Assembly: GCA_024401435.1 (NCBI GenBank)
Contig: JAKSLB010000004.1
Coordinates: 1-64,000, forward strand
Reading direction: 5' to 3'
Length of the DNA stretch: 64,000 nucleotides
Source of the DNA: Paludibacteraceae bacterium
GTDB lineage: Bacteria; Bacteroidota; Bacteroidia; Bacteroidales; Paludibacteraceae
In this document: positions 2-45,892 of the stretch, in pieces
How positions within the stretch are numbered: the stretch's first letter is position 1
Layout of the letters: each line of letters begins with the position of its first letter
Notes under the pieces: model-generated
What the model saw: only the letters and a program-made list of their open reading frames with translations
Database searches by the model: none
What the model was told of the DNA's origin: nothing
Translations under genes and position numbers: made by a program

Positions 2-1290
2 CTTACAATCCATACGCCCCTACGGGGGCGTTACGGACGCAAAACGGATCTTCCAAGAATACTTGAACTTACAATCCATACGCCCCTACGGGGGCGTTAC
101 CTTTTTGACAAATTCCAGACCCGAAGAAAGCTCTTACAATCCATACGCCCCTACGGGGGCGTTACTAAATGATACGGCTATCAAAAGAAAATTTAGAACT
201 TACAATCCATACGCCCCTACGGGGGCGTTACATTACAGAGACTTGCAGAGATTGAACAAGCCGACTTACAATCCATACGCCCCTACGGGGGCGTTACCCA
301 CGAATCCTGGGCTTCAGCGCTCCACGGTGTCTTACAATCCATACGCCCCTACGGGGGCGTTACAAACATTATGATTTAATTTCATTCATTGATTTTCTTA
401 CAATCCATACGCCCCTACGGGGGCGTTACTTAATTTCCGAAAATACAGAGACAACCAAATACTTACAATCCATACGCCCCTACGGGGGCGTTACTTCAAT
501 CGGAATTTTGATTCCGTTGTAGATATGCTTACAATCCATACGCCCCTACGGGGGCGTTACTCCATGAGTGCCAAAATATTTTCTGTGAAAGGGCTTACAA
601 TCCATACGCCCCTACGGGGGCGTTACTTCAAAAAATCTGTTTCCAACGACAAAGAAGAACTTACAATCCATACGCCCCTACGGGGGCGTTACATGGCGCA
701 GGAACCTATATCAAACCAGCTGAAGAACTTACAATCCATACGCCCCTACGGGGGCGTTACCAGAGCTTACTGGGAGAGTCTTAGTAGCCTTGCTTACAAT
801 CCATACGCCCCTACGGGGGCGTTACTTTGACCATGGCTGATGCTGTATACTTAACAGTTCTTACAATCCATACGCCCCTACGGGGGCGTTACAAGCTTGC
901 TTCCTTGGAAGCTTGGCAATTTACCTTACAATCCATACGCCCCTACGGGGGCGTTACCTTATTTTAGAGAAATTATCCAAGTAAGATGAATCTTACAATC
1001 CATACGCCCCTACGGGGGCGTTACACTATTGAACAGTCTCTAGATCGGTTTTCTAAAACTTACAATCCATACGCCCCTACGGGGGCGTTACCCAGAATCA
1101 GAAGAACAACCTAAACAACCGATTCTTACAATCCATACGCCCCTACGGGGGCGTTACCAAGTCAATAACTTAACCAATACTATTATGTACTTACAATCCA
1201 TACGCCCCTACGGGGGCGTTACCACCTCAATGCAGAAGATATTGACGCCGCCAAAAACTTACAATCCATACGCCCCTACGGGGGCGTTAC
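2..1290 (-). CRISPR. Type I-C CRISPR array, 20 repeats
   Basis: Twenty identical 33-bp repeats start at 2, 68, 133, 199, 264, 331, 397, 462, 528, 594, 660, 728, 793, 860, 925, 992, 1059, 1125, 1190 and 1258, separated by 19 different spacers of 32-35 bp. On the minus strand the repeat starts GTAACGCCCCCG and ends ATGGATTGTAAG, with a hairpin-forming GCCCCCGTAGGGGC core, which resembles known type I-C repeats. The cas genes and an AT-rich leader lie on the right, so the array is read leftwards and the spacer at 1223-1257 should be the newest. All repeats are perfect and the first begins at base 2, so the array probably continues beyond the window. I cannot identify the targets by eye. Confidence 0.98.
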
Positions 1291-1300
1291 TGTATGCTTT

Positions 1301-1329
1301 TTAATACATGTAAAAACAAAACTTTACAA
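1301..1329 (-). promoter_or_regulatory. Candidate CRISPR array promoter in the leader
   Basis: Read on the minus strand, TTGTAA (1324-1329) and TATTAA (1301-1306) are separated by exactly 17 bp, a sigma-70-like pair. Transcription would start within a few bases of the first repeat at 1290. The whole 1291-1428 leader is AT-rich, as is usual for CRISPR leaders, and holds no gene. This is a pattern match only. Confidence 0.45.
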
Positions 1330-1428
1330 GAGTAAAATCGCTAAACGTAAAACTTTTTCTTTTAAGAAACTAACTTGTAAAGCACAATGTTTTAAAAAAT
1401 TAAATTATATTAATATGTTACAACATTT

Positions 1429-1469
1429 CGCTAACCTCCTAGTGATTTTAATGGATCCATAGGTTAGCG
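1429..1469. repeat. Inverted repeat between cas2 and the leader
   Basis: A perfect 9-bp inverted repeat (CGCTAACCT at 1429-1437 and AGGTTAGCG at 1461-1469) lies just past the cas2 stop codon. It would form a hairpin at the end of the cas transcript. No U-tract follows, so it is not a classical terminator. It could be a protein-binding site or an mRNA-stabilising end, and it marks the border of the AT-rich leader. Confidence 0.5.
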
Positions 1470-1472
1470 TAA

Positions 1473-1763
1473 TCACAAGAGCAGTAATCCGTGCATGTCT
1501 ATGGGCCCCATTATACCATAATGTTCTATTTTTCGCTCCCAATTTGATCCTAAAAAATAGAATCTTAGGCTATCTTCTTGAACATTAACGATTTTTAATA
1601 AATTATTTTTCAAAATGACCCATTGGGATGGATCAACTTCGCATTCAAAAACTGAATTTTGTGCTCGTAATCCAAAATTTTTACATGCTTTTGCAATTTT
1701 AGCTAATCGACGTTTACCTTCAGACGTTTCTGTTGATACATCATATGTAATAAGAACTAACAT
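1473..1763 (-). CDS. cas2: CRISPR adaptation protein Cas2
   Basis: This 96-residue protein has the usual Cas2 length and opens with the family signature LVLITYDVST, whose Asp sits at the end of strand beta-1. It continues with NSVFECEVD and SLRFYFLG, as in type I-C Cas2 proteins. Cas2 forms the structural core of the Cas1-Cas2 integrase that inserts new spacers at the leader end. A GGAG motif lies 5 bases before the ATG, and the gene follows cas1 by one base. It is the last cas gene before the leader and array. Nothing suggests decay. Confidence 0.96.
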   Translation of the reverse strand: MLVLITYDVSTETSEGKRRLAKIAKACKNFGLRAQNSVFECEVDPSQWVILKNNLLKIVNVQEDSLRFYFLGSNWERKIEHYGIMGPIDMHGLLLL

Positions 1764-1764
1764 G

Positions 1765-2799
1765 TTATCTCCATATGTATGAGGGGTAATAATCTAGGTC
1801 TCCACGAATGCATTTTGCTAACAATCGTGCTTGTTCAATGTACAATAAGCCTGTCTGCATAGTCTCATCTAAAATAGGGTGAATAATTTCTTCTGTTTTT
1901 CTTTTCTGCCATGCTGACAGAAAAGTTTGTCTTGTACATTCATTCATCTCAACTTCTCCACTAGGTAGTACATTAAAATCTTTAGCATCGACCTTTTTAA
2001 GATTGATGAGACTTAACACCAACCTATCAGCAATAGGAGCTCTAAATTCTTCCATCATATCTAACGCTAAACTGGCTCGTCCGGGACGATCTGTATGTAA
2101 GAAACCGACATATGGATCAAGCCCTACACATTCCAATGCTGAACGAACATCTAGTGCTAAAAGAGAATATGCATAAGACAAAAGAGCATTAATTCTGTCT
2201 AAAGGTGGTCGCCTATTCCTGGTACAAAATCTAAAAGCAGGGTCTTTATTCAGTATCAAGTAGTTAAAAACACTAAAATACTTCTCTGCTGCATCACCTT
2301 CAATTCCTCGTAAAAAAGCGGCTGTATCTGCTTTCTTTGTCTGGTGTATTGATTGCTCCATGTCTTTAATAGCGGCTTTGACAGATGCGCTCCCTTCACA
2401 ATTGCTGTGGTTCCTCAAATGACGCAGTAAAACATTTCTCTGGTTCTGTATTTTTGCTGCAATACAGCATTTTGCAAGCTCTAATGAATTTTCAGCATTG
2501 TCAGCTATGCGATATTGTTCCCGTCTGAGCAAAACGTTTCCTTTAATTGGTCCCTGCATACGCGCTAAAAATTTTCCTCTACCATCCACATAGGTAATAG
2601 TAATACCTTTTTCTGAACAAAATTCTGCGAGATAAGGCGACACATTGATACTGTATCCATAGCACACTATTTCACCGATTTGGTGAATGGGAAAATAAGC
2701 TTTTTGTACGTGGTCTTTGTGTATAGTAATTGTTTCCCCATCTTTATGTACATAGGATCCAGACAGTGTAACATATAACGTATTTTTAATTGTCTTCAT
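1765..2799 (-). CDS. cas1: CRISPR integrase Cas1
   Basis: At 344 residues this is a full-length type I-C-like Cas1. The metal-binding residues are visible: Glu167 in GIEGDAAEKYF, His235 in GFLHTDRPGR, and acidic residues 247-250 in ALDMMEEFR. Cas1 catalyses the two transesterifications that insert a new spacer, working with Cas2 and, in this subtype, with Cas4. GGAGG lies 9 bases before the start. It is tightly packed between cas4 and cas2. The intact catalytic residues argue that spacer acquisition is still possible. Confidence 0.96.
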   Translation of the reverse strand: MKTIKNTLYVTLSGSYVHKDGETITIHKDHVQKAYFPIHQIGEIVCYGYSINVSPYLAEFCSEKGITITYVDGRGKFLARMQGPIKGNVLLRREQYRIADNAENSLELAKCCIAAKIQNQRNVLLRHLRNHSNCEGSASVKAAIKDMEQSIHQTKKADTAAFLRGIEGDAAEKYFSVFNYLILNKDPAFRFCTRNRRPPLDRINALLSYAYSLLALDVRSALECVGLDPYVGFLHTDRPGRASLALDMMEEFRAPIADRLVLSLINLKKVDAKDFNVLPSGEVEMNECTRQTFLSAWQKRKTEEIIHPILDETMQTGLLYIEQARLLAKCIRGDLDYYPSYIWR

Positions 2800-2816
2800 T
2801 TCCTTGTACCTCCGAT

Positions 2817-3488
2817 TTACAAATCAGACACTTCAAAAAGTTTTTGATAATACTGGTGTAGTTTTCTGTTTCGTGTGACATTAGGTTGACAAATACCTTT
2901 TAATGAACAGGCAAAACAACGTTGATCATGTTCTGCACTAGGAAGTTTTTTACTGTTCATTAAAATATGACATTCATTTGCTAAAGCTTTAGTTTTTTCT
3001 CGTATTTCAGGTGTAAAAACATACTCCGTTCGATGTCTAGTTTGACAATAAAAGATTGATCCTTCTGTCACAGGTAGACCTGTCATTTCTTCTAGACATA
3101 AAGCTTGAGCACATAATTGCAGTAAATCAGCATCAGTTTGTTTTGGCTTTCCATGTTTAAATTCAACTGGCTTTAGCTGCCAATTGCCTGTTAATCCCGT
3201 TCCTGGTATACATATTGGAGGCCCATTTGTTTCTTCGATTTCTAGAATATCCATGCGACCATACAGACCTAATTCTTGGCTTTTAAGATATAAACCTGAA
3301 AATTGTCTTAACCCTTTACGAAATTCGTGATAACCGGAGTCCACCCGTTCATGTTTAACTTGACCTTCGGAGGTTAAAAAATTATCCGCCCATTCTTTTT
3401 CTAAATGAATTAATCCCCACTGACGTTTGCAATAAGCAAAATGTTGTAAACCAGATATAGCAATAAAATCTTCTTCATCGTGTGACAT
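2817..3488 (-). CDS. cas4: Cas4 RecB-like nuclease
   Basis: This 223-residue protein has the Cas4 layout. An N-terminal Cys lies in HFAYCKRQW. The RecB-type nuclease core includes LYGRMDILEIE (metal Asp) and PVEFKHGKP (Glu and catalytic Lys). Three C-terminal cysteines in CFACSLKGIC would complete an iron-sulphur cluster with the N-terminal one. In type I-C, Cas4 trims prespacers and helps choose PAM-containing ones for Cas1-Cas2. Upstream is a 59-base gap from cas5. The Shine-Dalgarno is weak (AGAAAG). Confidence 0.94.
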   Translation of the reverse strand: MSHDEEDFIAISGLQHFAYCKRQWGLIHLEKEWADNFLTSEGQVKHERVDSGYHEFRKGLRQFSGLYLKSQELGLYGRMDILEIEETNGPPICIPGTGLTGNWQLKPVEFKHGKPKQTDADLLQLCAQALCLEEMTGLPVTEGSIFYCQTRHRTEYVFTPEIREKTKALANECHILMNSKKLPSAEHDQRCFACSLKGICQPNVTRNRKLHQYYQKLFEVSDL

Positions 3489-3547
3489 ACGAAAATACTT
3501 TCTATCAAAGTTAAAAGATATCTTCTTACTTTGATTGTTGTTAAATC

Positions 3548-4369
3548 TTAGGGTTCAATCAACAAACCTTCTTCACCCCAACGTGGAATATGCATGACAC
3601 CGTCAACTAGCTGTGCTTTGAAGAAAGCCCGCTTATAAGGTGACTGTGCAAAATCCATCCCATAGAACATCCAACCCAAATCTCGATTGTATTTTATAGC
3701 TGGAAACAGCAATTGTTCTGGAAAGAGATCATGATGTGGTATATAGCGGGTTCTTGCAGTGTACTCGCGTTGTCCAAAATAACCTTTCTCTCCATAATAT
3801 GGGTTTGCTAAACGTTTACAACATTCAATAATATCAAAATATTTTTTGGGGTTTTCAGTCTGCGGTGATCTATCAGTCTGTGCTTGATTTTGTCTAAACT
3901 CTACTGGTATATAGGTCATCCTTGCATAAATACGGTATTTAACATCAACTAAGACACGGTGGTTGCACATCGAGATATTGTCTAAGATTGACATGTCGAC
4001 TGGTTGACACTTTTGTACGTTTCTTATAGAAATTTTATTGTTTTGCAATCTACTGGTAAAATTAGTAAATTGAATTTTATTTAAAACCTCTACTTTTACA
4101 GGTTCCCACATGATTGCAGGTTTCCAAAAACTATGTTCAAATATACCTTTTATTGCAGATGGTGTGATGACATCATAGCTGTTTTTATCTCCACCTGCTT
4201 CAGGTCTATTGAACAAAGCCATTGGTCCTGAAACTTCCATACAATACGTCTTGGAAATTTGATAGTCTCCTGTTCTTTCTGATTTAAAACATGATTCATA
4301 TTGTGTACCTTCATATTTTTCTTTTAAAAATTTCTTGTAAATGTTTTCATAAGTATCTGTGTGTTTCAT
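3548..4369 (-). CDS. cas5c: Cas5c, crRNA-processing Cascade subunit
   Basis: This 273-residue protein matches the Cas5d/Dvulg family: EVSGPMALFNRPE, then SYDVITPSAIKGIFEHSFWKP (a close variant of the family's YDVMTPSAARGI), then GYFGQREYTAR in the second half. In type I-C systems there is no Cas6; Cas5c cuts the repeat hairpin and stays in Cascade. No cas6 is seen here, in line with that role. The start overlaps the cas3 stop by 4 bases, and its GGAG lies inside the end of cas3, implying translational coupling. Confidence 0.93.
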   Translation of the reverse strand: MKHTDTYENIYKKFLKEKYEGTQYESCFKSERTGDYQISKTYCMEVSGPMALFNRPEAGGDKNSYDVITPSAIKGIFEHSFWKPAIMWEPVKVEVLNKIQFTNFTSRLQNNKISIRNVQKCQPVDMSILDNISMCNHRVLVDVKYRIYARMTYIPVEFRQNQAQTDRSPQTENPKKYFDIIECCKRLANPYYGEKGYFGQREYTARTRYIPHHDLFPEQLLFPAIKYNRDLGWMFYGMDFAQSPYKRAFFKAQLVDGVMHIPRWGEEGLLIEP

Positions 4370-6537
4370 TGTTTTTCTCCAATAGTGTTACTGTTAATAA
4401 TTTCGAATCCACAATCTTCTGAATAATAACACGGGTCTAAAACATATATTTCTATATCGTTTTGACCATCTATCAAAATTTTCCTACAACCACCTGTTTT
4501 CAACAACAACTCGAACATCTTTTTTGGAACATTGATTGTGTACCTTTGAAATTTTCTTAAAAGATTTCTTGTAAAAAAACCTTTTTCAAAAGTCTTTAGG
4601 TAATCAATACAGTCTCCATATGGAACTATAACTGACTGCTGTTCATCGTCTTCAATCAAATTGAATTTTTCTGCTGCAGACCTAAATTGAATATGACCAA
4701 GACTACCTGAGGATAAAAGTTTTTGAATTTGATTTTTATCAAAGCATTGAATTTGAGCATAATATTCAATAAAGTATTTATTGATCTGATCTGCTTCAAT
4801 ACGAAATTCATCTATTCCTCGTAAAATCTTTTTAGTTGCTTGTGCACCATACCGCTGTAAACCAATAGGTGGCATCGTACAAGAGTTAAATAGAACAACT
4901 TTTCCCTGTTTTAATTTTCCCTCTCTGTTACAACGTCCTGCTGCTTGTGCTACTGAATCTAATCCTGCAATCGCTCTATAGACAACAGGAAAATCAATAT
5001 CTACACCTGCTTCTACAACTTGTGTACTGATTACTCTAACTGTTTTTCCGTTTTTAAGTTTTTCTTTAATCTCATCAATAACTTTACTGCGATGCGCGCC
5101 ACACATTGTTGCAGACAAATGTATTGTTCCTGAAGGCATTAATCGATACAGATCCTGACAATCTTTTCTTGTGTTGACAATACATAATACTTGTTGGTGT
5201 TCGACTAATGTATCTGCAAGTGTTCTCCAATCAGTTACGTTTTTGTAATCATAACAAATAGATACACGTTGCATTCGTTTAAACAAAGACTGTACATCTG
5301 GGATTATTTCTTTTGTTTGTTCTTTTCTTAATCCCTTTATTACAGCTTGTCCAGAGCCGATCTCACCAATGAGTGCTGGTTGTGTTGCAGAACACAAAAC
5401 AATCGTACAACGAAAATTTTTCACTAAACACTGAAATAAAGACAGTATCGGTTTTAAAAATTCAGGTGGTAACATTTGTGCTTCATCAAGAATGATCACA
5501 GAATTTGCAATATTATGTAGTTTTCTGCACTGACTTCTTTTTGCTGAAAAACACGATTCAAGTAATTGAACATTTGTTGTAACAACGACAGGCATATCCC
5601 AATTTTCTGTTGCCATTTTCATTTGATCTGTTAGGTTTTCAGTGATTAAATTGGAATGATGCTCTAATATATTTTCTTTTCCTAAAACCTTCCTATAAAC
5701 ATCAGCAGTCTGTTCGATAATACTGGTAAAAGGTATAGCAAAAATAACTCTATTCTTTTTCCAAAGTTCAGCATGTTTTAATGCAAAACCCAAACTGGAT
5801 AGTGTCTTTCCAACACCTGTAGGTGCAGTAAAAGTATATATTCCAGGTTCTAATTCGGCAGCATCAAGACAATTTTGTAGAACTTCGTTTCTGATATCGT
5901 TTATTCCTGTTGATGTTGAAAAACCTTTCATATATGAAGTAAATTTTTGCTGTAATTCTTTGATAGACGCCCCATGAAAAGCTCTTGTTTTTGCCTGTTC
6001 AATGTTACAAAATCGTTCTGTATCCAACCAATCAGCGTCAATTAAACAAGAATATAACATTCGACACCACATATGTAATGTATTACTGTTATATTGTCCT
6101 GGACTTCCTAAGTTTGGTGGTACAACTGAAACTGTTTCAGACAAAGGATTTCCCCGAGCTTTTTCTAATAAGTCGTGTTTTTGTAATCTTTGCTTTAAAG
6201 AACCTCCTTCACCATTTTCAGAAGAATAATCGGGTAAACCTGAATGATGACCTGCTAAGCAATATGCTAAAAGAGTCCCAATTTCTTTTAATTTTTCTTG
6301 TGCAATAATTGCACCTACAGAAGAATGATCGATTTTTTCAGATTTCTTATGTAAAATATATTCTTGAAAGTCTGGGTTAAATTTTCCAAAATCATGCAGT
6401 ATTCCACAATACTCTGCATAACTCTGGGAACCGAATACTGATGCAAATTGCGCAGCTAACTGAGAAACTCCAATAGAATGCTCATATATGGATTGTGTTC
6501 TGCTATCTGCTTCGTGTGTATGTGCAATATCTGTCAT
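4366..6537 (-). CDS. cas3: Cas3 helicase-nuclease
   Basis: This 723-residue fused HD nuclease and superfamily 2 helicase unwinds and degrades the target recruited by Cascade. The HD domain shows His20, His48-Asp49 (GILHDFGK) and His97-His98 (AGHHSG). The helicase shows Walker A APTGVGKT near 238-245, the DEAQ box at 351-354, a LSAT motif III and the motif VI segment AAGRCNREG. All active-site motifs look intact, so this is unlikely to be a binding-only system. It is unusual that cas3 lies downstream of cas8c and cas7 rather than first in the operon. Confidence 0.96.
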   Translation of the reverse strand: MTDIAHTHEADSRTQSIYEHSIGVSQLAAQFASVFGSQSYAEYCGILHDFGKFNPDFQEYILHKKSEKIDHSSVGAIIAQEKLKEIGTLLAYCLAGHHSGLPDYSSENGEGGSLKQRLQKHDLLEKARGNPLSETVSVVPPNLGSPGQYNSNTLHMWCRMLYSCLIDADWLDTERFCNIEQAKTRAFHGASIKELQQKFTSYMKGFSTSTGINDIRNEVLQNCLDAAELEPGIYTFTAPTGVGKTLSSLGFALKHAELWKKNRVIFAIPFTSIIEQTADVYRKVLGKENILEHHSNLITENLTDQMKMATENWDMPVVVTTNVQLLESCFSAKRSQCRKLHNIANSVIILDEAQMLPPEFLKPILSLFQCLVKNFRCTIVLCSATQPALIGEIGSGQAVIKGLRKEQTKEIIPDVQSLFKRMQRVSICYDYKNVTDWRTLADTLVEHQQVLCIVNTRKDCQDLYRLMPSGTIHLSATMCGAHRSKVIDEIKEKLKNGKTVRVISTQVVEAGVDIDFPVVYRAIAGLDSVAQAAGRCNREGKLKQGKVVLFNSCTMPPIGLQRYGAQATKKILRGIDEFRIEADQINKYFIEYYAQIQCFDKNQIQKLLSSGSLGHIQFRSAAEKFNLIEDDEQQSVIVPYGDCIDYLKTFEKGFFTRNLLRKFQRYTINVPKKMFELLLKTGGCRKILIDGQNDIEIYVLDPCYYSEDCGFEIINSNTIGEKQ

Positions 6538-6580
6538 AGAATTTTGTCACCCGTGCACTTAATAATACAGTGCGTTAGAG

Positions 6581-6638
6581 ACATATAGTTGAAGGCGGAC
6601 AAACCCTTTTGCAGGTCAATCCGCCTCCAGCTATATGT
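6581..6638 (-). other. Imperfect hairpin between cas7 and cas3
   Basis: In the 123-base gap between cas7 and cas3 the arms ACATATAG/CTATATGT and AGGCGGA/TCCGCCT form an imperfect stem of about 19 bp around a loop of about 20 bases. No U-tract follows, so it is not a standard terminator. It could modulate how much cas3 and downstream message is made, or could mark the junction where two cas blocks were joined. Confidence 0.5.
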
Positions 6639-6660
6639 ATATAGATTTAAAAATTAACGA

Positions 6661-7560
6661 TTATGCTTTTAAAAGATCACGCATAACTACACCATTTTTG
6701 TTGATTGGATCAGATACCTTGACCTCATAGTCCTCCCAGCAACTTGGAATATTAACACCTGCTTTTTTCTGAACTTTGATTGCATCCAAGACTAAATCAG
6801 GATCACAAGCTTGTTTCAGGTCAAATAGCCACAATCCACGAACACGACGTGTACCTTTTGATGAGGTATGTCTATCCCAGTACATGCTCTTGATATCATC
6901 CATTAATAACTCAAGATCCTCCATTGTTGCACCGGTCTTGGATGCTTGGATAGGAGATACATAGAACCGTGCTGCATAGAGAGCATAAGGAACAAAGAAA
7001 TAATTACCGCACTCTGTAGTCTTAATAAAGTTGGATCCCTCGTTTTTGCTAGGTTCATTTGTTAGCATACAACGACATAACGGTTGGTTGATATATTGAA
7101 TTGGATCTATACTAACAGCTGGACTGAATTGAACAGGACCAGTTAGGTTTTTAGCAAAACTACCGGTTGACAAAGCTCCGCCAAACATACGTAGATCAAA
7201 GAATCTTGTAGATAAGACTTTTGCTGCAGCTGCTTGTTTAGCTAACTCAGTTTGTGTTTTTGATTCTTTTTCTATTTCAACAACAGAAGGATCCTGACGG
7301 GCTTCATCAATCAAATCATTGATGTATACCCCGCGTGTGTTTGCAGAACAGCTACAGAAGATTTCTTGTCCTGGTTCATTTTGATGAACATTCTCATGAC
7401 GATCTCGGATATTACGTTTAATACCATGAGCTGTAATAAAACCATGATTGTTGTTTGGTAAAATATTGGGCGCGTTGTCATTATTCATGTTTCCTTGAGG
7501 GTTGCACATATAAGAATCAACGAGAAGTAAACCACAGAGAGCATTGTTAATAGTTGTCAT
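6661..7560 (-). CDS. cas7c: Cas7c (Csd2), Cascade backbone
   Basis: This is a 299-residue Csd2-family protein. The N-terminus shows the RNA-binding backbone signature: NPQGNMNNDNAPNI corresponds to the family's NPNGDPD region, followed by HGFITAHGIKRNIRD. GALSTG and TGPVQF also fit the family. Several copies coat the crRNA in Cascade. I chose the ATG at 7560 because AAGGAG lies 8-9 bases before it; a longer in-frame reading to 7623 has no such signal. The gene lies downstream of cas8c with a 73-base gap. Confidence 0.95.
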   Translation of the reverse strand: MTTINNALCGLLLVDSYMCNPQGNMNNDNAPNILPNNNHGFITAHGIKRNIRDRHENVHQNEPGQEIFCSCSANTRGVYINDLIDEARQDPSVVEIEKESKTQTELAKQAAAAKVLSTRFFDLRMFGGALSTGSFAKNLTGPVQFSPAVSIDPIQYINQPLCRCMLTNEPSKNEGSNFIKTTECGNYFFVPYALYAARFYVSPIQASKTGATMEDLELLMDDIKSMYWDRHTSSKGTRRVRGLWLFDLKQACDPDLVLDAIKVQKKAGVNIPSCWEDYEVKVSDPINKNGVVMRDLLKA

Positions 7561-7633
7561 GATAAGACTCCTTTTCATAAAATGATTGTTTGAATAAAAT
7601 ACTGATCGATTCATTCCGATCAAAATAAATGTT

Positions 7634-9430
7634 TTAGTCGTTATTGTCGTTTTCTTTAGTGATATCTAACTTTCTGCTAAGTCTTTCGTGATAATAACCG
7701 ATGAAAAACTCACCTTGTTGGTCATTGTTTTGAAAAACAGGGAAACTATTGATCCGTCCGACCAATTCTGTTATATCATTCACGTAAGCCCCATTTAATT
7801 TAGCCCGATACACACTATTATATTTCTCTAACATACCTGGAAAAACGGTGCTCGGTTGTGCAGCTGCCATACTCATCATTGATGTGAAACCATTACCACG
7901 CGTAGCTCGATACTGTGAAGTTTCTAGCAAAAAGAACAATCTGCCCAATAAATATGCAACATTGTTATTGTTTTCATCTAAACTCATTGTTAACTCCTTT
8001 TGTTGATAAATTCTTTTTTGACGATTAAGATATCCTTTTAAAACACCTGCGCGGGCTGCTGTTAATGCTGGCTCCTTTCTACGGTCTTTTGTTAATGCTG
8101 ACCCAGCTTTAATTCTTGTTAAGCATCCTACAAACAACGATTCAGGAAATGGTGTTCCATGTAATGCCGCATCCAGTATTTGTTCACCTAAATGTGGAGG
8201 AACTACAGGATCTTTAAATTCTTTCTTTGTGGATGCTAAGACACTGTAAATCGACTTAGATTGTGGTTTATCATATACACCTATTTCTAAATCGGTAAAA
8301 TATTGTACAATGTTTTCTGCTAATGTAGCTAAATCACCCGCATACCAATCTACTACCGCGTTTCTAGACGGAGACCCTTTTATAGCTAAACAGTACACTT
8401 GCATATCTGCAATCTCAGGATGTTCACCGTTTAACAATGACATATATACGCTTCTAATTTTTTGAATCGTATCTCGTTCATTAGCTTCTTTTATTGCATT
8501 CTGTTCTTCAGAATCTTCATCTGTTTTGTCTGCAAAAAAAGTGCTGGTTAATAAAGACTCTATTTCTGTGTTTCCAGATTCCGTCCAAAAGAAGTGTGTT
8601 ACATCGCTATCTTTTAGATGAAAACTGTTTATTTTAGATTTCCACAGCAACTTTAGTCCGTACATACCATTGAGAGACATTTCTTCTGATATAGAAGCGT
8701 TTTCCCCTTGAGTCCGCCCATAATGACAAAAAGAAGGTTTATTGAAGGAACTCAACGGACCTGGTTGTGTCCCGTTTCCCGGTAAAAGAATTGCATCAAA
8801 TTTTCTCGCTATGGGTGCTATTTTTCCAGAAAAAGAACATATTCCTACATCCTTGTCAGTCTGTGCATCATCTTCAGCGACACGTTGATTTAGAAACCGT
8901 GAACAAATGGGCAAATCATCACCGTCCACATGAAATGTGAGATTTGATTTACCAAGGCATTTCCAAATAGGATCAGGCGATTCATCCGTATTGGGGTATT
9001 TCTCGGTAACTTTAGATAACGGGTCATTTTCCAAAAATGTCAAAACTGCTTGCATAGAATCATCTGCAGTAAGATAAGACCTGCATTTTATCTTTTGAAT
9101 AAAATCGGCTAAACATAATTTTGCACGTGATAAATCTCTCTGGATTTTTTGTTCAGGTGTATCTTTGGCAGGTTTTTCTACATAACCCAATAAATACTTG
9201 GCATTTCCGTATAGAAAATCTGCATCAATATTATTAGATTTACACCCCTGTCTCACATAACAAGCTGTGGGTCGACCCAACAAACGTTTGTTCTGTTTTG
9301 ATCTTAGATCATTAATCGTAATTAGATTTCCTTCACGATCAAGTTCAATATAGAAATCAATTAAAACATTCTGACAATGTGGTAACATAGTGCAGTGATT
9401 CTCGTAATATTTAGCTAACGCTGCAAACAT
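7634..9430 (-). CDS. cas8c: Cas8c (Csd1), Cascade large subunit
   Basis: About 598 residues long, it begins FAALAKYYENH, as Csd1 proteins do, and contains the family segment SFNKPSFCHYGRTQGENASIS near the middle. Cas8c recognises the PAM and, through an internal start in known systems, can also supply the small subunit. The start at 9430 has AAAAGGAG 9 bases upstream; the ATG at 9439 would be only 4 bases from it. Here it is the first recognisable cas gene, whereas type I-C operons usually begin with cas3. Confidence 0.93.
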   Translation of the reverse strand: MFAALAKYYENHCTMLPHCQNVLIDFYIELDREGNLITINDLRSKQNKRLLGRPTACYVRQGCKSNNIDADFLYGNAKYLLGYVEKPAKDTPEQKIQRDLSRAKLCLADFIQKIKCRSYLTADDSMQAVLTFLENDPLSKVTEKYPNTDESPDPIWKCLGKSNLTFHVDGDDLPICSRFLNQRVAEDDAQTDKDVGICSFSGKIAPIARKFDAILLPGNGTQPGPLSSFNKPSFCHYGRTQGENASISEEMSLNGMYGLKLLWKSKINSFHLKDSDVTHFFWTESGNTEIESLLTSTFFADKTDEDSEEQNAIKEANERDTIQKIRSVYMSLLNGEHPEIADMQVYCLAIKGSPSRNAVVDWYAGDLATLAENIVQYFTDLEIGVYDKPQSKSIYSVLASTKKEFKDPVVPPHLGEQILDAALHGTPFPESLFVGCLTRIKAGSALTKDRRKEPALTAARAGVLKGYLNRQKRIYQQKELTMSLDENNNNVAYLLGRLFFLLETSQYRATRGNGFTSMMSMAAAQPSTVFPGMLEKYNSVYRAKLNGAYVNDITELVGRINSFPVFQNNDQQGEFFIGYYHERLSRKLDITKENDNND

Positions 9431-9431
9431 A

Positions 9432-9674
9432 TCATGCATCTCCTTTTATCATCTGTTCGAAATAAACACATTGTTGGTAATCTTCAGACTCACCATCAGT
9501 CCAACATCTTGCAATCATCTGTTCAAAGTCTGGACTGTATTCAAACAGCAATTTAGGGTTAGTCTCAAAATCCCCACTCTCAGGGTGGAATTCAATAATG
9601 ATCCCTGGGTAATATACGTCATCACTGGATACAGCTGTAAAATACCCTTTTCCGGGTATATCTTTAATTTTCAT
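9432..9674 (-). CDS. Small protein at the head of the cas operon
   Basis: I do not recognise this 80-residue acidic protein. It is rich in Tyr, Phe, Glu and Asp, with no membrane segment or Cys pair motif (2 Cys in total). It starts after GAGGACTAACA and ends 1 base before the cas8c start, so it is almost certainly co-transcribed and translationally coupled with the Cascade genes. Its position suggests a regulator or accessory factor of the CRISPR system, but an unrelated phage protein is equally possible. Confidence 0.7.
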   Translation of the reverse strand: MKIKDIPGKGYFTAVSSDDVYYPGIIIEFHPESGDFETNPKLLFEYSPDFEQMIARCWTDGESEDYQQCVYFEQMIKGDA

Positions 9675-9700
9675 TGTTAGTCCTCGTATATTGTGTCTAG

Positions 9701-11057: not shown

Positions 11058-11498
11058 TTATATTGTTCTTACATATCTGACACTTAAACAATCGTTCATA
11101 CTTGTACACAACATGTATTTCAAATCGTTGTTTATGAACCAACTGTATGCGTTTCGATGTGTATAGGTTTCAGAGGTCCAAAACGCAGTCCCCTGTTGAA
11201 AAATGCAGGTATGTTTCAAACTGTAATCATAGATACCTGCATTTGGTAGAACGTTGTTTGTGATATCCACAAGATTTGTCAAGTCCTTTATTTCATTCCT
11301 GGTTGGAAGTCTCCACCCTTCAGGGGCGGCTTTCATTGCAGTCCTCCAATTGTAAAGACAACCAAATTTAGAACGATTTTCAGGATTGTTATCTGGATAG
11401 TGATGTTTAATAGACGTATTTTGATAGTTATCAAGAAACCATTCAAGATTTCCTATCTTAATGGTCCGATAGATTATACCGTCTCTATCTTTCAGCAT
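11058..11498 (-). CDS. FISUMP-domain protein
   Basis: This 146-residue protein shows the layout of the Fibrobacter succinogenes major paralogous domain: KIGNLEWFLDNY, then FGCLYNWRTAMKAAPEGWRLPTRNEI, then GTAFWTSETYT and a final SVRYVR. These proteins are usually surface or secreted in anaerobic bacteria, and the fold is related to formylglycine-generating/C-type-lectin-like domains. No signal peptide is seen, so it is probably an intracellular or virion protein. Its role in a phage is unknown; ligand binding is a guess. It overlaps the upstream gene by 14 bases. Confidence 0.75.
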   Translation of the reverse strand: MLKDRDGIIYRTIKIGNLEWFLDNYQNTSIKHHYPDNNPENRSKFGCLYNWRTAMKAAPEGWRLPTRNEIKDLTNLVDITNNVLPNAGIYDYSLKHTCIFQQGTAFWTSETYTHRNAYSWFINNDLKYMLCTSMNDCLSVRYVRTI

Positions 11499-20088: not shown

Positions 20089-22431
20089 TTATTTACCTTT
20101 CTTTTCTACCCAGACATCAGTTGAAACAATTTTAGTTGACAAAAGAATTTCTTTTTTCTTCGGACCGCTTCTTAAAACTTCCAAAGCTTCTTCCAAATCT
20201 TCATTTGTGACTTGAACAATACGTCTTGTCTTAACATTCGTTACAGCGTCATGGAAATGTTTACCCAAACCACCAAGACCTTTGATACGTTCAAACGGTT
20301 TTGATTTATCAAGTTGTTTATCTACATCACCGTCCTCAGCATAAATCGCTTTTCCATTTTGGAAATAAAACGGAGTCTGTCCAATAAACAGTTTCCCTGC
20401 ATCAATTAAAAACTTTGCATGTTGTCCAAATGCACCTACGAATAGAGCGACAATTCTTCTAGCATCTTCATCGGAATCACCGAAGTATATGATTTTATTA
20501 AATCTTATCTTACTAAGATTACTGAATCCTTCAACACCCGCCCCGATACTTCTGAACAAATCGTTCATCTCATCATTCTTAAGTACGTCAAGAATGTCTT
20601 TTCCAATTGTGTTTTTACAGACACCACGCATTGGAAATAGTGCTTGGAATTCTGGGTTTCGTGTTTTGTGACTTGAACTAAGAGCGGAGTTTCCTTCAAA
20701 TACAAGTAATTCAGCTTTACTTCTATCTGATGTCCATGCGTCTTTCAGACGTTTTGGTTTATAACTGTCAGCCCTTCTCGTATTCTTTGTGGAATTATCG
20801 TCCATATCACCAAGAAGATTTGCAAGTGTTTGTTTCTTGTTTAATTCACCACGTTTAGCACGGAGATTTTGAATCTTTGCAAAGTTATCTTCAAACTCCG
20901 ACAAATCTGATTTCATAATTGATTTCAGTTCATTTTTCAGGACTGTCAAATCATTCTTATCAAAATCAGGGATTCTGCTCAGTTTGGTTTTACTTTGTGA
21001 ATCAAAATCAACTTCATTAGCTAAGATAAACACTGTTGCATCAACACCATTATCTTCCATACCACCAGCATCACCCAATAATTCACGTGTTGCTAGTTTG
21101 TATGCTTTTCTGAACATATCAATATGCAGACCCTGGTGCACAGCAAGTGAATTGACACAACCAACATTGTTCTTTGTCAGAATGTCCCCGTTGAATTGGA
21201 ATGAACCAAAAATTCGTACTTTTGGATTCTTACCGTCTTTATATAAACCGGGCATTGTGACATCAAACTTATATTTCAGATCTTCCACTTTAGATACATA
21301 GGGTTGATCATTTAATATAATGTTCAGTTTTCGTCCTGTCAGTTCAGCTAATTTTAGTGTGTAATCCAAACCTTTTGGGAGACTGTAGTTTGCTGTTTCA
21401 AAGATGGATAAATCAGGAATAAAGGATACAATTGTTGTGTAGTCCTTTAAATCTTCAAAACCTAATTCTTTAAGGTTCTTTGCAAATCCTTCTTCTTTTT
21501 TCACACCTTTTTTATAATGAAGATAGTACCATTTTTCCCCGTCATATTTGAGTTTCTTGGGGAATTTAGTTGTCTTCTTGATAACCTTCGTAATCATCAA
21601 GAAATCGTCAGAAAGGGCATTTACAGCTTTATTTCCACAGTTATGAACAAAGATACCTTTTGGTCCTCCGTCAATAGCAAGCATGAAATTGCTGTTGTCA
21701 CCTGCATTCATGACATCGTAGACAGGAATCTGTGTATTCAGCTGTTCTTTTGTAACAGAAGATACATAGAAATCATCTCCAAAGGATCTTAAACAATCTC
21801 CTGTACAAAGTTCCTCAGCTTTCTTATACATACCGTTTGATAACATGAACCTGTGATCTGTTGTACATTTAATTATGGTCTGACCAATTTTAACTTTACA
21901 GATAACATCTACATGTTTTGTCAAAACTACAGCATCTGCTGTTACTATTTGAGCCCGCCCGTTTTTATTGACAGATAATACCTTGATGTTTTGCTTTCCT
22001 ACTAAAGAATCCAGACGGACAACATGTTTATTGTCTGCATCATAGATTAAAGTGTCTCCGGTAAAACATCCGTTCATACCGTTCATTGCAATAGACTTAT
22101 CAAACTTACTTCCTGCATGAAGATGACTGACTGAAGCATCCATTTTTGTCTGACCAATAGGTTTTCCTCCAATCTCTGCTTCATCTAAAGGAAAACCTGT
22201 TTTAGAACGATCTGCGACAATACAACGGATATTCTTTTTAGGACTGGTTTTAATGTCTTCGATCTTTATATAGACTGTATCATTCACACCTTTATGAAAC
22301 TCATCTATACCATTATCAATAACTTCACGTACCATGTTAGATACATTAGACATATCCCCAATGTAAGTTCCTGGTCTCGTGCGTATAGCTGTGAGTCCTT
22401 CAAGTATTTGAAATTCATCAGTTTTTGACAT
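20089..22431 (-). CDS. 39: DNA topoisomerase II large subunit with mini-intein (T4 gp39-like)
   Basis: This 780-residue precursor is 637 residues after intein removal. It is a GyrB/ParE-type ATPase: RTRPGTYIGD and EVIDNGIDEF (ATP-binding Asn) near the N-terminus, IGQTKMDASVSHLHAGSKF before the lid, and a C-terminal TOPRIM domain (LLVFEGNSAL, FGDSDEDARRI). A 143-residue intein (residues 122-264) is inserted exactly in the glycine-rich ATP lid, so the enzyme should be inactive until splicing. The phage promoter element lies about 40 bases upstream of the ATG. Confidence 0.94.
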   Translation of the reverse strand: MSKTDEFQILEGLTAIRTRPGTYIGDMSNVSNMVREVIDNGIDEFHKGVNDTVYIKIEDIKTSPKKNIRCIVADRSKTGFPLDEAEIGGKPIGQTKMDASVSHLHAGSKFDKSIAMNGMNGCFTGDTLIYDADNKHVVRLDSLVGKQNIKVLSVNKNGRAQIVTADAVVLTKHVDVICKVKIGQTIIKCTTDHRFMLSNGMYKKAEELCTGDCLRSFGDDFYVSSVTKEQLNTQIPVYDVMNAGDNSNFMLAIDGGPKGIFVHNCGNKAVNALSDDFLMITKVIKKTTKFPKKLKYDGEKWYYLHYKKGVKKEEGFAKNLKELGFEDLKDYTTIVSFIPDLSIFETANYSLPKGLDYTLKLAELTGRKLNIILNDQPYVSKVEDLKYKFDVTMPGLYKDGKNPKVRIFGSFQFNGDILTKNNVGCVNSLAVHQGLHIDMFRKAYKLATRELLGDAGGMEDNGVDATVFILANEVDFDSQSKTKLSRIPDFDKNDLTVLKNELKSIMKSDLSEFEDNFAKIQNLRAKRGELNKKQTLANLLGDMDDNSTKNTRRADSYKPKRLKDAWTSDRSKAELLVFEGNSALSSSHKTRNPEFQALFPMRGVCKNTIGKDILDVLKNDEMNDLFRSIGAGVEGFSNLSKIRFNKIIYFGDSDEDARRIVALFVGAFGQHAKFLIDAGKLFIGQTPFYFQNGKAIYAEDGDVDKQLDKSKPFERIKGLGGLGKHFHDAVTNVKTRRIVQVTNEDLEEALEVLRSGPKKKEILLSTKIVSTDVWVEKKGK
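21640..22068 (-). mobile_element. Mini-intein in the topoisomerase ATPase lid
   Basis: The insertion starts with Cys122 (CFTGDTLI, block A) and includes the block B His in KCTTDHRFML. Block F is VYDVMNAGDNSNFM, and the insert ends in FVHN (block G), followed by Cys265 as the +1 residue. Exteins rejoin as GMNG-CGNKAVNALS, matching the GxxGxGxKAVNALS motif of GyrB. At 143 residues there is no room for a homing endonuclease, so it is a splicing-only mini-intein. All expected splice-junction residues are present. Confidence 0.92.
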
Positions 22432-42035: not shown

Positions 42036-43135
42036 CGTTAATTAATGTTCAAGTAAGGTCGTTAATCTTACTTCTGAATAAATTCAGCTATATGTTTCCA
42101 TATAGAACAGACTATATCTTACCTAAAATACTAAGAGTTTAGGTGTCACCATTTCCAACCACTTGGTTGTACTCCCAAAAGGGATAGTCGTTGAACTTCT
42201 AAATGAGGTATATTTTGATAATCAGTCAAAATATTTTTGTATTTCTTTAAGAATTGCATCTTTAAATTTTAAATCATACCACTCAGAGTGACCTAAACGG
42301 AAAAAATCATTGTTAGGATATGACTCTTTATTTAATGGTTTACTGTAACATCGGAGCTGTTTATGGATATCAGATTCTATTTTACTAATATCGGAATAAA
42401 CTCCATCATAAGAATAGATTTTATCAAAGATAATACCTGCAAACTTATAATTATCTAGTCGACTAGTCAAGTTAGTTGACTTTCCTATTTTTAATAAGTT
42501 TTCTTTCTTAAATATACCAACATACAAAACAGCTTTATCTTGAGCTGATCTTACATGATATACTGAGCGACCTTTTTCATCTTTTATCAGATTTGCTTTT
42601 AAAAATCTATGCTTACCTTCTTTTGACAATGTATATTGTGATTTTGATCTCATAATATCTTTGCCATTTTCATCAAGTTTAGCGTTTTGATGCAAGAAAT
42701 GATATGTACCATTTGCAATTGCTCTTCGATTGGCTAGAGATTGGCTACAAGACTTAGAGCAAGAGGGATTAAAGTAACCACCTGCACGATACGAAAATTT
42801 ACAGTCTTTCCCACAAATTGGACATTTGGGTATCTCAGTTAAACCTAATCTTTTCAATGTATACTGTATAAAATCTAATTGATGTGACTGTAATGCATGT
42901 GAAATCAATTGAGCAGAATTTTTTACTTTAATGCCACAAATTATGCAGCTGTAAGTTTTTGTTATGCCACCTGTATTATCTTTTCTTTTCCTTCCCATTT
43001 TCATACCTCATTTATTTAGCTGCTGATTGTCCAATTCTTTAGATTGTCACTACGATTGATGAGTTCGTTAGTACTAAAGACTATAAGGAGTTTCCAGCAA
43101 TTAGATGACTTAGGAACCCCGACCTATTATAAGTA
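42036..43135 (-). mobile_element. Group I intron in DNA polymerase motif A
   Basis: The four conserved core elements are readable: P as AATTGCTGGAAAC, Q as AATCAGCAGC, R as TTCAACGACTAT and S as AAGATATAGTC. P7 is GACTAT/ATAGTC (42184-42189 and 42110-42115). P1 forms between exon GAACCU and intron GGGGUUC, leaving a U-G pair at the 5' splice site (exon ends at 43136). The intron ends in G at 42036. Splicing restores ISQAEP-RSICYRSEDP in frame. It carries its own endonuclease gene between Q and R. Confidence 0.9.
42222..42998 (-). CDS. Intron-encoded GIY-YIG-like endonuclease
   Basis: About 258 residues. The N-terminus has a zinc-finger-like CIICGIKV...HALQSH and a second CPICG...C..SC site. 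Two copies of a repeat module follow (GTYHFLHQNAKLDENGKDI and KHRFLKANLIKDEKGR). The C-terminal domain reads VLYVGIFKKENLLKIGKSTNLTSRLDNY, which resembles the GIY-YIG/T5orf172 type. It lies wholly inside the group I intron and would cut intronless polymerase genes to spread it. The start at 42998 has GAGG 8 bases upstream. Confidence 0.8.
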   Translation of the reverse strand: MGRKRKDNTGGITKTYSCIICGIKVKNSAQLISHALQSHQLDFIQYTLKRLGLTEIPKCPICGKDCKFSYRAGGYFNPSCSKSCSQSLANRRAIANGTYHFLHQNAKLDENGKDIMRSKSQYTLSKEGKHRFLKANLIKDEKGRSVYHVRSAQDKAVLYVGIFKKENLLKIGKSTNLTSRLDNYKFAGIIFDKIYSYDGVYSDISKIESDIHKQLRCYSKPLNKESYPNNDFFRLGHSEWYDLKFKDAILKEIQKYFD

Positions 43136-43207
43136 AGGTTCTGCCTGACTTATGTCCCAATATGCCGCTATGTACCCGTCCCTGAGTTTTGTCTTTTCAA
43201 TTTTCAT
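43136..43207 (-). CDS. Family A DNA polymerase C-terminal part, exon 1
   Basis: These 24 codons begin with ATG, 12 bases after AGGA, and read MKIEKTKLRDGYIAAYWDIS followed by QAEP. DISQAE is polymerase motif A with the first catalytic Asp. The frame is closed by a stop just upstream (TAG before the AGGA), so this is the start of a separate protein, not a continuation of the N-terminal gene. The splice site follows the Pro codon. It overlaps the end of the nuclease gene upstream by 11 bases. Confidence 0.8.
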
Positions 43208-44762
43208 GGTTTTGTTCTTTCCTTTCTAAGTTCATTCCATACACTAAATTCCCACAGTCATACAAAATGCGATATCCTGCTTTTAGCATATTTTCCTGTT
43301 CCGTAAGATTTTCGTCAAAAAGATCACCTAACAGTTCAGGAAGTTTGTGCTTTTGACATTGTAACCTAGACAACAGTTTAAAGCAGTCTTTCGTGTAAAA
43401 GTAATTTGGTTCGGATTCACCAATCTTTGTAAAACCTAATTTTTCGTAAAGCCTTCCATTACTCCACCTACGATTAGCATATGAAATAATAGATTTCGGG
43501 TGATAATCACAGATAAAGTGTTTTAACAGTTTACCAGCACCACCAATAACATTTATATTTCTTAGGTTACAAAATCTAATCAGTTCATATTGGAAAGCTT
43601 TGTTAAATCTTGGTGCACTAAATGTCATGACCGATATAAGCTGATTCTGATACATTAATCCATATGTGATTTTAGCTGGAATATAGCCCTGTAAATGGTT
43701 CTCATCTAGAAAGCCTTTTACATCAATGTTTTTGCATACCGTACATTTTCTAGCAAAAATCGTTTTATTCAATCCTAACTTTGAACGAATAACTGATTCC
43801 CATATTGGTCTTTTTGATTTATCTGTCCACTCGTTATTAAGCATATGAAGGAGTTGTACACCTTTTTCCTCACATTGCTGTGTCTTATTAAGATGATAAT
43901 CCCTATCAATATTACTATGCCAGTAAATACCATCATACTCAATTGCTAAAGAACGGTCTTCAAAATAAAAATCCAATTCATAAGGTTTTATCAGTTTTCG
44001 ACTCGCGCCTTCAAAAGGAATATTCAACGTAACGAGAAAATCATTGACAGACTGTTCACCATGTCGTTTATCCCAGTGATTGGTGTTGATCGCTTCTATT
44101 CCAGCTTCTTGCTTTGCTTTTAAAGCACCGTCATATGTACAATTAAAATACCGCATCATGGCATAAAGATCAAATTCGCCGTCTTTAGATAAAAAATGTT
44201 CTTCTAAAAATTGTTTATCCGCAAACTCTTCGGGGTTCCCCCTCATATCTTTTTGTTTCCAAACATTTTGTCGGCTCCAATTAAAAGTCCCATACAGACG
44301 CTTCGTATTCATGGTTTTTTGTGCTAGGATATCTTTTCCGTCTTCATCCAAAACCCTATTTTTGGATAAGAAGTGATGCGTTCCATTTTTTACTGATACG
44401 GTGTTTGCATTGACCGTGTATAAGTCTCTTCCATCAGAAGTCAACGGTCTATTTTGTTTCTGTAATGGATTCTTTCCTTCAGAAGAAAGTCTTAACAGTG
44501 TTTTTGTGGCAGTTTTCGAATGTATGTCTTGTAAAAATTTAGTTTTACATTCATCATTGGAACAATATTTACGAACATTAAAACCTTCTATCCGTACAGG
44601 ATTTATTCCACAAATCTCACATTTAGGTAAGTTATCTTTATCTAAACCTGCAGATTCAATTGCATAGTCCTCTACTGATTTTTGGTGCACAGTTGCTAGA
44701 TGTTTTCTGAACCAAGAATTATGGATCTTTTCATTACAATAAAAACAAACTTTCTCGCTCAT
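43197..44762 (-). CDS. Free-standing homing endonuclease-like protein (Vsr/EDxHD type)
   Basis: 521 residues from the chosen ATG. In order: a zinc-finger-like N-terminus (CFYCNEKIHNSWFRKHLATVH), a PKCEICG site, two or three GTHHFLSKNRVLDEDGKDIL-type modules, a nuclease core with LAIEYDGIYWHSNID typical of Vsr-like enzymes, and a C-terminal domain (FLDENHLQGY, YANRRWSNGRLYEKLGF) shared with other phage homing nucleases. It sits immediately upstream of the C-terminal polymerase gene, as expected of an element inserted into and splitting a gene. An upstream TTG start is less likely. Confidence 0.75.
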   Translation of the reverse strand: MSEKVCFYCNEKIHNSWFRKHLATVHQKSVEDYAIESAGLDKDNLPKCEICGINPVRIEGFNVRKYCSNDECKTKFLQDIHSKTATKTLLRLSSEGKNPLQKQNRPLTSDGRDLYTVNANTVSVKNGTHHFLSKNRVLDEDGKDILAQKTMNTKRLYGTFNWSRQNVWKQKDMRGNPEEFADKQFLEEHFLSKDGEFDLYAMMRYFNCTYDGALKAKQEAGIEAINTNHWDKRHGEQSVNDFLVTLNIPFEGASRKLIKPYELDFYFEDRSLAIEYDGIYWHSNIDRDYHLNKTQQCEEKGVQLLHMLNNEWTDKSKRPIWESVIRSKLGLNKTIFARKCTVCKNIDVKGFLDENHLQGYIPAKITYGLMYQNQLISVMTFSAPRFNKAFQYELIRFCNLRNINVIGGAGKLLKHFICDYHPKSIISYANRRWSNGRLYEKLGFTKIGESEPNYFYTKDCFKLLSRLQCQKHKLPELLGDLFDENLTEQENMLKAGYRILYDCGNLVYGMNLERKEQNHEN

Positions 44763-44821
44763 ATCATAAATTTCTCGTAGTATTTTGTGTGTACAGAGCT
44801 TTTCAGGTTTCTGTTTAAGTT

Positions 44822-45262
44822 TCAGCAATTAGCAACTTTACAAAAACACCCGTTAATTGTCGCCACCTGATCACTTACATCAACAACTGTCATAGAGAAA
44901 TGATCTCCAAGGTTTACAATTTGATCCGTCTGAAAAGTGACTTCAGTATAACTTTTTGTTGCAGTACAATTATCTTTACGTAGAATAACTCCATAACGAA
45001 GATTGTTATTCTCATCATACATAGCGTCCACACACATAACAGTAAAATCATCTGCAGTGTTGTCAAAGCAGATGGTGTAAGTGTGTCCTGTCTTATATTT
45101 GAAGCCCTCGTCCATAAGCAACCCTGAAATCGTAATCACGCATGGATCTGCTTCCGGATCCTTCGGATAACTTACAAATGCAAGATCCACCTGGTTTCCA
45201 CATTTGCGCTCTTCTAACGCAGCATGATGAAGCTGTAACCCCTCAAATTGAACACTTTTCAT
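44822..45262 (-). CDS. Hypothetical protein, 146 aa
   Basis: This beta-rich protein with seven cysteines, several near the C-terminus (GCFCKVANC), is not recognised. It has its own promoter-like element 59 bases upstream and sits between two mobile-nuclease regions. AGAGGAGTTTACT precedes the ATG, a good ribosome binding site. Confidence 0.65.
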   Translation of the reverse strand: MKSVQFEGLQLHHAALEERKCGNQVDLAFVSYPKDPEADPCVITISGLLMDEGFKYKTGHTYTICFDNTADDFTVMCVDAMYDENNNLRYGVILRKDNCTATKSYTEVTFQTDQIVNLGDHFSMTVVDVSDQVATINGCFCKVANC

Positions 45263-45321
45263 AGTAAACTCCTCTAACGTCTTCTCTACACACTATTGTG
45301 TAACAGCAACGACGTCTTTCT

Positions 45322-45373
45322 TATACATACAGGATTTAAACTCAAAATTTTTCTTATAGTAAAAACTAGTTTT
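45322..45373 (-). promoter_or_regulatory. Phage promoter element with upstream palindrome
   Basis: AAAACTAGTTTTT (45361-45373) is followed by TTTTGAGTTTAAATCC and TGTATGTATAA on the minus strand. It lies between the terminator at 45379-45415 and the gene at 44822-45262. Confidence 0.72.
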
Positions 45374-45378
45374 CAGAA

Positions 45379-45415: not shown

Positions 45416-45429
45416 ATATCTGTGTGCTT

Positions 45430-45846: not shown

Positions 45847-45892
45847 AGGTATTCTCTTTCGTTAGTATTTGTTTCTTACATAGTTATGTTTA

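Follow-up and report, generated by a model that had tools for sequence, protein, structure and literature searches.

The question raised by the left end of contig C139 is whether a phage can own a complete type I-C CRISPR-Cas system (clustered regularly interspaced short palindromic repeats and CRISPR-associated proteins), adaptation genes included, and what such a system would do. The window considered here, 64,000 nucleotides long, corresponds to bases 1-64000 of this contig (JAKSLB010000004.1; 203,429 bases), which belongs to the 204-contig assembly of a Paludibacteraceae bacterium (GCA_024401435.1; hereafter, the bin). The available data point to a type I-C-like CRISPR-Cas system that is complete, long resident and part of the genome of a contractile-tailed jumbo phage, a reading that we consider likely. 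The original prediction of a complete type I-C locus on a phage genome is supported by the gene content, by the phage context and by the composition of the cas genes and of both flanks.

Following the array, seven open frames are found on the minus strand, in the order cas2, cas1, cas4, cas5, cas3, cas7 and cas8c. NCBIfam recognises all seven products, six of them over the curated cut-off and Cas7 (Csd2) under it, and the best PADLOC models include Cas1c, Cas2c, Cas3c, Cas4c, Cas5c and Cas8c. The adaptation module comprises cas2 (1473-1763; 96 residues; TIGR01573, E 7e-17; Cas2c, E 1.6e-39), cas1 of type I-C (1765-2799; 344 residues; TIGR03640 over cut-off, E 2e-139) and cas4 (2817-3488; 223 residues; TIGR00372 over cut-off; Cas4c, E 6e-76). 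The next genes are cas5c (3548-4369; 273 residues; TIGR01876 over cut-off), encoding the presumed nuclease of CRISPR RNA (crRNA) precursors, and cas3 (4366-6537; 723 residues; TIGR01587 and TIGR01596 over cut-off; Cas3c, E 4e-221), encoding an HD nuclease and helicase. The strongly diverged backbone subunit is specified by cas7c (6661-7560; TIGR02589 below cut-off; PADLOC Cas7c, E 1e-34), in an open reading frame (ORF) that extends to 7623. Judging from the sequence, translation probably starts at ATG 7560, which has a Shine-Dalgarno motif, rather than at TTG 7623, giving 299 residues. Finally, cas8c (7634-9439; 601 residues) encodes the I-C signature large subunit (TIGR01863, 264 bits for a cut-off of 218.65; type I-C Cas8 chain 8g9t_K of the PDB, E 1.4e-40). 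Within it, AAAGGAG followed by an ATG at 7987 marks a predicted internally translated small subunit, Cas11c (7634-7987, minus strand), and at the sequence level residues 486-598 of Cas8c match the Cas11 chains of I-C Cascades. The operon opens with an 80-residue ORF (9432-9674, minus strand) that overlaps the start of cas8c by 8 bases. This ORF had set the right edge of the predicted locus; it matches no Cas or other family in NCBIfam, Pfam, PHROGs or PADLOC, and its structure model, with a predicted local distance difference test score (pLDDT) of 58, is too uncertain for use.

By Cas8c, Cas5c, Cas3, Cas1 and the Cas11c signal, the system classifies as type I-C, with an atypical Cas7, repeat and gene order. 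It has Cas8c, a Cas3 with HD and helicase parts, Cas4-Cas1-Cas2, the internal Cas11c start (at the sequence level) and a Cas5c without Cas6, no match to the latter being found with NCBIfam or PADLOC among the eight operon ORFs, the part of the contig searched for it. The typical but non-defining traits, a repeat ending in TTGAAAC and the gene order 3-5-8-7-4-1-2, are absent. The order observed, 8-7-3-5-4-1-2, is shared only by Desulfonema magnum (L079) among 82 bacterial loci (80 from a Cas1 scan, plus L021 and L022). The canonical order is complete in 37 of these 82, the others being cut by the end of the contig or locus or differently composed.

Conservation of the Cas proteins was scored over the columns in which bacterial relatives reach at least 95% conservation, and the bacterial rows available for each protein were scored likewise. 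Cas3 (54/54) and Cas8c (15/15) keep every such column. Most are kept by Cas1 (109/120; 1 of 80 bacterial rows as low), Cas2 (28/31; none of 73), Cas4 (39/44; 2 of 79) and Cas5 (12/14; 3 of 53). Moreover, the E-H-D residues of Cas1, the HD, Walker A and DEAQ motifs of Cas3 and the cysteines and RecB motif of Cas4, as recognised by eye, are all present. The claim of intact catalytic motifs that had been made for this locus holds to that extent; the low conservation of Cas7 is considered below. The catalytic triad Tyr46-Lys116-His117 described in PMC3652601 could not be mapped onto the phage Cas5; in the numbering used here, the Tyr46 column holds F in the phage protein and F, L, H or Y in other I-C Cas5. 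In a 22-row alignment (A1), this Cas5 shows about 40 extra N-terminal residues, and its predicted model (pLDDT 79) matches the I-C Cas5 structure 8dej_A (Foldseek E 5.8e-16).

The array itself occupies positions 2-1290 (minus strand), where CTTACAATCCATACGCCCCTACGGGGGCGTTAC is found in 20 exact copies, with none in 100 shuffles. These 20 identical 33-nucleotide repeats, separated by 19 spacers of 32-35 nucleotides, are the array that had been predicted; they do not make up the whole of it, since the array runs off the contig edge onto contig C149 (14,997 bases). The end of C149 carries three exact repeats preceded by a degenerate one, and its last 34 bases are the first 34 of C139. In all, 22 distinct spacers are seen; the repeats would number 23 if the overlap is a single junction, and more if the assembly collapsed some. 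The degenerate repeat lies at the array end away from cas2, the other repeats are identical and the spacers all differ (the sole match between them at E ≤0.1 spans 9 nucleotides), as expected from growth at a leader on the cas2 side. By its position between array and cas2, the segment 1291-1472 is the putative leader. Given the side on which cas2 lies and the distal degenerate repeat, transcription of the array is presumed to run from the cas2 side, on the minus strand.

The repeat departs from the bacterial consensus at both ends. Comparison was made with 50 arrays from bacterial loci L032-L113; two of the consensus repeats are cut short, and the 48 with a full 3' end all finish with TTGAAAC, where the phage repeat has TTGTAAG. 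At the 5' end, the phage repeat starts with GTAAC, the bacterial ones with GTCGC, GTCGT or GCCGC. Folding shows that a 7-bp hairpin is still formed. When the phage repeat was used as a query, no relatives were found. Among IMG/VR arrays beside I-C-like effectors, two large contigs are also off-consensus, with TTCAAGC (L139) and TTTCAAC (L159), and others on viral contigs end in TTGAAAC (L138, L144, L146, L156, L158 and the cas1-bearing L148, L151 and L160). The altered repeat and the diverged Cas7 would fit evolution on the phage, apart from the I-C systems of hosts. A lone near-copy of the repeat is also present at C149:11380-11411, ending 11 nucleotides before the ATG of an unknown phage gene (C149:10529-11368); in the loop region it lacks one G, as does the degenerate distal repeat. 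This copy may represent a relic, or Cas5 may cleave the message of that gene there.

That the surrounding genome is that of a phage is indicated by PHROGs matches on C139 to a large terminase (3.6e-7), a tail sheath, a ParM-like partition protein, topoisomerase II, an RNA-polymerase subunit and two helicases, one of them DnaB-like. The contig also encodes a sigma factor and NrdD. With 203,429 bases, C139 alone exceeds the 200 kb of a jumbo phage, and C149, if joined, would add about 15 kb. A megablast search of 50,697 phage records gave no match to the first 24 kb of C139, the tail sheath has no tblastn match in the same records, and relatives of the topoisomerase and RNA polymerase are 20-32% identical among the matches listed. 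Tetranucleotide composition was correlated with the rest of C139 and with pooled host-like stretches from C1, C46, C128 and C135 (by eye, only C46 holds a clear chromosomal gene). The cas genes (1301-9680) give 0.833 with the phage and 0.670 with the host-like pool; for 23 phage windows of equal size, the median is 0.89 and the lowest value 0.789, two being as low as the cas genes. For C149 the values are 0.92 and 0.68. On balance, the DNA on both sides of the locus is phage-like and its genes are so for the most part, and because the array reaches the phage-like C149, the locus is very probably an internal part of the phage genome. Another contig of the bin, C141 (27,012 bases; L129), is phage-like in composition (0.86), has four Fib_succ_major matches related to window positions 11058-11498 and may belong to this phage genome as well. 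At the far end of C139 (203,100-203,429), the sequence resembles by eye the beginning of a recombinase gene of the IS607 type, which might explain why the assembly breaks there.

Where the system came from was addressed through its relatives. Among the best 80 of 266 Cas1 relatives, which were those taken for loci and comparison, the nearest is on a contig (L045) of a Fibrobacterota metagenome-assembled genome, with 61% identity for Cas1, 59% for Cas2 and 48% for Cas4, in a canonical locus among bacterial genes. In the tree, Cas1 pairs with that of L045 (support 100/99); the branches leading to both are long, and the bootstrap is unsettled. The best-scoring bacterial Cas3 is 47.5% identical, and the eight best-scoring bacterial relatives show 33-37% for Cas5, 28-31% for Cas7 and 28-31% for Cas8c. 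A Cas8c search of 250 genomes of the bin's family, its own included, gave a match in two others. Both have canonical I-C loci with canonical repeats and a Cas1 that is 46-48% identical and falls within a Bacteroidota clade of the tree, so the bin may be of Bacteroidota. Of two protein families used as clues to the host, TIGR02145 gave few hits and TIGR02148 gave none, the second result carrying no weight because the controls gave none either. A recent transfer from the family of the bin is thus probably not the origin of the phage system. No relatives turned up when IMG/VR was scanned singly with Cas8c, Cas1 or the terminase. Three human-faecal "phage" records (5.6-11.3 kb) have a Cas1 at 45-47%, two of them also a Cas8c; being unannotated, they were not counted as phage.

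From these components, a working cycle can be proposed. During infection, the array would be transcribed from the cas2-side leader and Cas5c would cut each hairpin repeat. Cas8c, Cas7c, Cas5c and the internally translated Cas11c would then assemble Cascade on the crRNA, and Cascade would recruit Cas3 so that matching DNA is destroyed. New spacers would be inserted next to the leader by Cas4-Cas1-Cas2. Mobile elements that share the host, such as competing phages or satellites, would be the most likely targets. The suggestion that spacers are gained by the phage itself and turned on rival phages or plasmids is plausible.

Matching of the spacers to databases, proposed along with the original prediction, gave no credible match. 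The 19 spacers of C139 (S01-S19) had no credible target in phages (best E 0.4), no match in plasmids and no credible match in 16 genomes of the genus, for which nearly all candidates were scored; the three of C149 (T20-T22), compared with the phages among these three sets, had no credible target there. In 358 genomes of the family, own genome included, with the best two candidates per genome scored, none of the 22 spacers had a convincing match, the longest being 21 nucleotides exact, 24/33 overall, in genome G147. Nor was any spacer credibly matched in the portions compared of seven further contig stretches from the bin, and the longest exact self-match among those listed for C139 and C149 is 16 nucleotides (S12 in C149). 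Codon-degenerate patterns for three of the 22 spacers (S01, S09 and S07, in guessed frames) found nothing in IMG/VR, only the S09 pattern having been shown to work, on the window. Six weak matches, four at 24-25/33 bases and two below the 72% line, were rejected. Since no credible target was found, function is inferred from gene content, and we likewise infer expression, crRNA processing, interference, acquisition, targets and orthogonality to the host.

Several observations weigh against a complete and active phage system. Cas7, which is not an enzyme, keeps 18 of 32 conserved columns and has lost 14, and none of the 53 bacterial Cas7 is as low. Its best NCBIfam family, Csd2, reaches 117.9 bits for a cut-off of 182.25; in PADLOC, PDLC01614 (named Cas7b, annotated I-B and I-C) scores higher than Cas7c, and the I-C Cas7 chain 8g9s_B of the PDB matches at E 9.5e-35. 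Together with a repeat that differs at both ends, this would suit a locus that is phage-borne but no longer confers immunity, in which decay or change of Cas7 has left a remnant for silencing or storage. However, all the genes are open, Cas3 and Cas8c have lost no conserved column, the C139 repeats do not differ from one another and Cas8c retains its internal Cas11c signal; such a remnant is judged quite unlikely. Cas5 also lacks the RRNE and RQQR motifs common in alignment A1. As a special trait this was dropped: in a wider set, R[RK]NE is absent from 26 of 53 Cas5 and RxQR from 17 of 53, and the loss is thus not diagnostic. Further, no spacer is assigned to a target, which leaves interference and acquisition putative; the protospacer adjacent motif of type I-C systems is TTC, and none could be read here, no protospacer having been found. 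No near relative of the phage that could show spacer variation was found either. By analogy with phage ICP1, which acts against the phage-inducible chromosomal island-like element (PLE), the system might instead be aimed at the host, with spacers against chromosomal defence islands. This has the ICP1 precedent in its favour (PMC11656645), but the 22 spacers have no convincing match in the bin or, with two candidates scored per genome, in the family genomes, and a host-directed role seems unlikely.

The physical evidence has its own weak points on the same side. The join of C149 to C139 rests on one repeat and one base of assembly overlap; the cas2-cas1-cas4 stretch (1301-4100, a 2.8-kb window) is only slightly nearer to the phage (0.61) than to the host-like pool (0.54); and the locus with its array included correlates at only 0.58 with the phage. 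The last value suggested foreign DNA, an interpretation that was abandoned because the locus is phage-like once the array is excluded. An error of assembly or binning, joining a bacterial cas locus to a phage contig, could account for the fact that C139 begins inside the array and for adaptation genes that, on their own, are not clearly phage-like in composition. Yet the cas genes are phage-like overall, the array has its other end on C149, which is phage-like too, and neither the remaining contigs of the bin nor, with two candidates scored per genome, the 358 family genomes yielded an array with the phage repeat or spacers. Of the two results that could have overturned the original prediction, neither the chimeric contig, as judged by composition, nor the host-chromosome array appeared. 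Such an artefact is thought highly improbable. A complete system resident in the phage genome is the reading that we retain. A bolder version of it can be put forward tentatively, as possible rather than probable: a self-sufficient adaptive system owned by the phage, which still records new spacers and in which repeat, Cas5 and Cas7 diverged together from bacterial I-C, keeping phage crRNAs apart from the Cas proteins of the host; the lone C149 repeat may let Cas5c cut and regulate a message.

How unusual such a locus would be can be judged from published systems and from IMG/VR. According to PMC7162821, almost all systems of huge phages are without Cas1, Cas2 and Cas4 and have short arrays (median six repeats), and a named I-C variant among them is without Cas1 and Cas2. 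Most jumbo-phage systems are likewise described as without acquisition units, some being intact (PMC13037316), and none are reported with class II effectors in the available part of PMC12607003. Since some jumbo-phage systems appear fully functional (PMC11656645), completeness alone is not new. Among the titles and abstract openings listed by the paper searches, none names a complete I-C case in a jumbo phage; Al-Shayeb 2022 (Cell) could contain one. A Cas7-profile scan of IMG/VR gave 25 loci. Seven contigs above 100 kb have Cas5-Cas8-Cas7 (L137, L139, L141, L144, L146, L158 and L159, L144 and L146 resembling copies) and L140 has Cas7 only. Cas1 is on none of these eight, whose records may be fragments; this agrees, as does PMC7162821, with the view that huge phages seldom have adaptation genes. 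Cas1 was found in 5 of the 16 records searched, all on contigs of at most 55 kb with the canonical order; the nine records in which it was not sought are the Cas7-only L142, L145, L153-L155 and L157, the apparent near-copies L138 and L147, and L149. With L140 set aside, 15 records were compared for a phrog_2 terminase. Four have one, each of them above 100 kb, whereas the five Cas1-bearing records gave none and may thus be phages or not. As the scan used the pattern NPNGDPD and a KRK motif, absent from the Cas7 studied here, phages with a Cas7 like this one may be missed.

Set beside bacterial I-C systems such as L045, the phage locus is alike in Cas3, Cas5c, Cas8c with its Cas11c region, Cas7c, Cas4, Cas1, Cas2 and a hairpin repeat of 31-33 nucleotides, but differs in gene order, repeat ends, a Cas7 at about 28-31% to its best-scoring bacterial relatives, and phage location. 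With ICP1 it shares a phage genome bearing an array and genes for both interference and adaptation (PMC11656645), whereas the ICP1 system is of type I-F and works against PLE, and that studied here is of type I-C, as read from genes alone. The huge-phage I-C variant has a similar I-C-like effector with Cas5d-type processing but, unlike the present locus where all are found, is without Cas1 and Cas2 and has another helicase in place of Cas3 (PMC7162821). The seven IMG/VR contigs are likewise large and viral, with Cas5-Cas8-Cas7 and arrays, L139 and L159 also having repeats that do not end in TTGAAAC, but none has Cas1 on the contig.

Other elements were noted in passing. The bin contains a second phage contig, C13 (90,168 bases; L115:3658-10970 and L131), with a T4-like portal, a head protease and topoisomerase II. 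It carries a different CRISPR locus, with Cas1e-like and Cas3fv-like genes, three unnamed ORFs (399, 330 and 183 residues) and arrays of 9 and 4 copies of GTATCACTCCTATGCGGGTGAAATTTAT, a further copy lying at C13:65091-65124; its 11 spacers have no match above 16 nucleotides in C139 or C149. On C139, an IscB-like protein (RRXRR and HNH) adjoins a HEARO (omega) RNA at 76167-77670 (L004:12167-13670), and a group I intron adjoins an ORF matching phage RNA-polymerase subunits at 194751-194966 (L018:10751-10966). In the window, the protein encoded at 48611-52063, polymerase-like by eye, has an intein splicing domain, and the topoisomerase-like ORF at 20089-22431 appears, also by eye, to bear an intein. 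About seven homing-endonuclease-like ORFs with zinc fingers were recognised by eye, scattered over window positions 42222-47298 and 57725-59362 and C139:111591-117080. Finally, many right-arm proteins (C139:80103-185338) begin, by eye, with a similar motif, for example NFSRVVRKYFSE, perhaps a capsid-targeting sequence or a cleaved propeptide.

With an entire I-C set, Cas1-Cas2-Cas4 included, and no fewer than 22 spacers, this large phage allows one to test whether any virus other than ICP1 learns from rivals. Moreover, the off-consensus repeat and the outlying Cas7 provide a natural example of a Cascade possibly insulated from its counterpart in the host.

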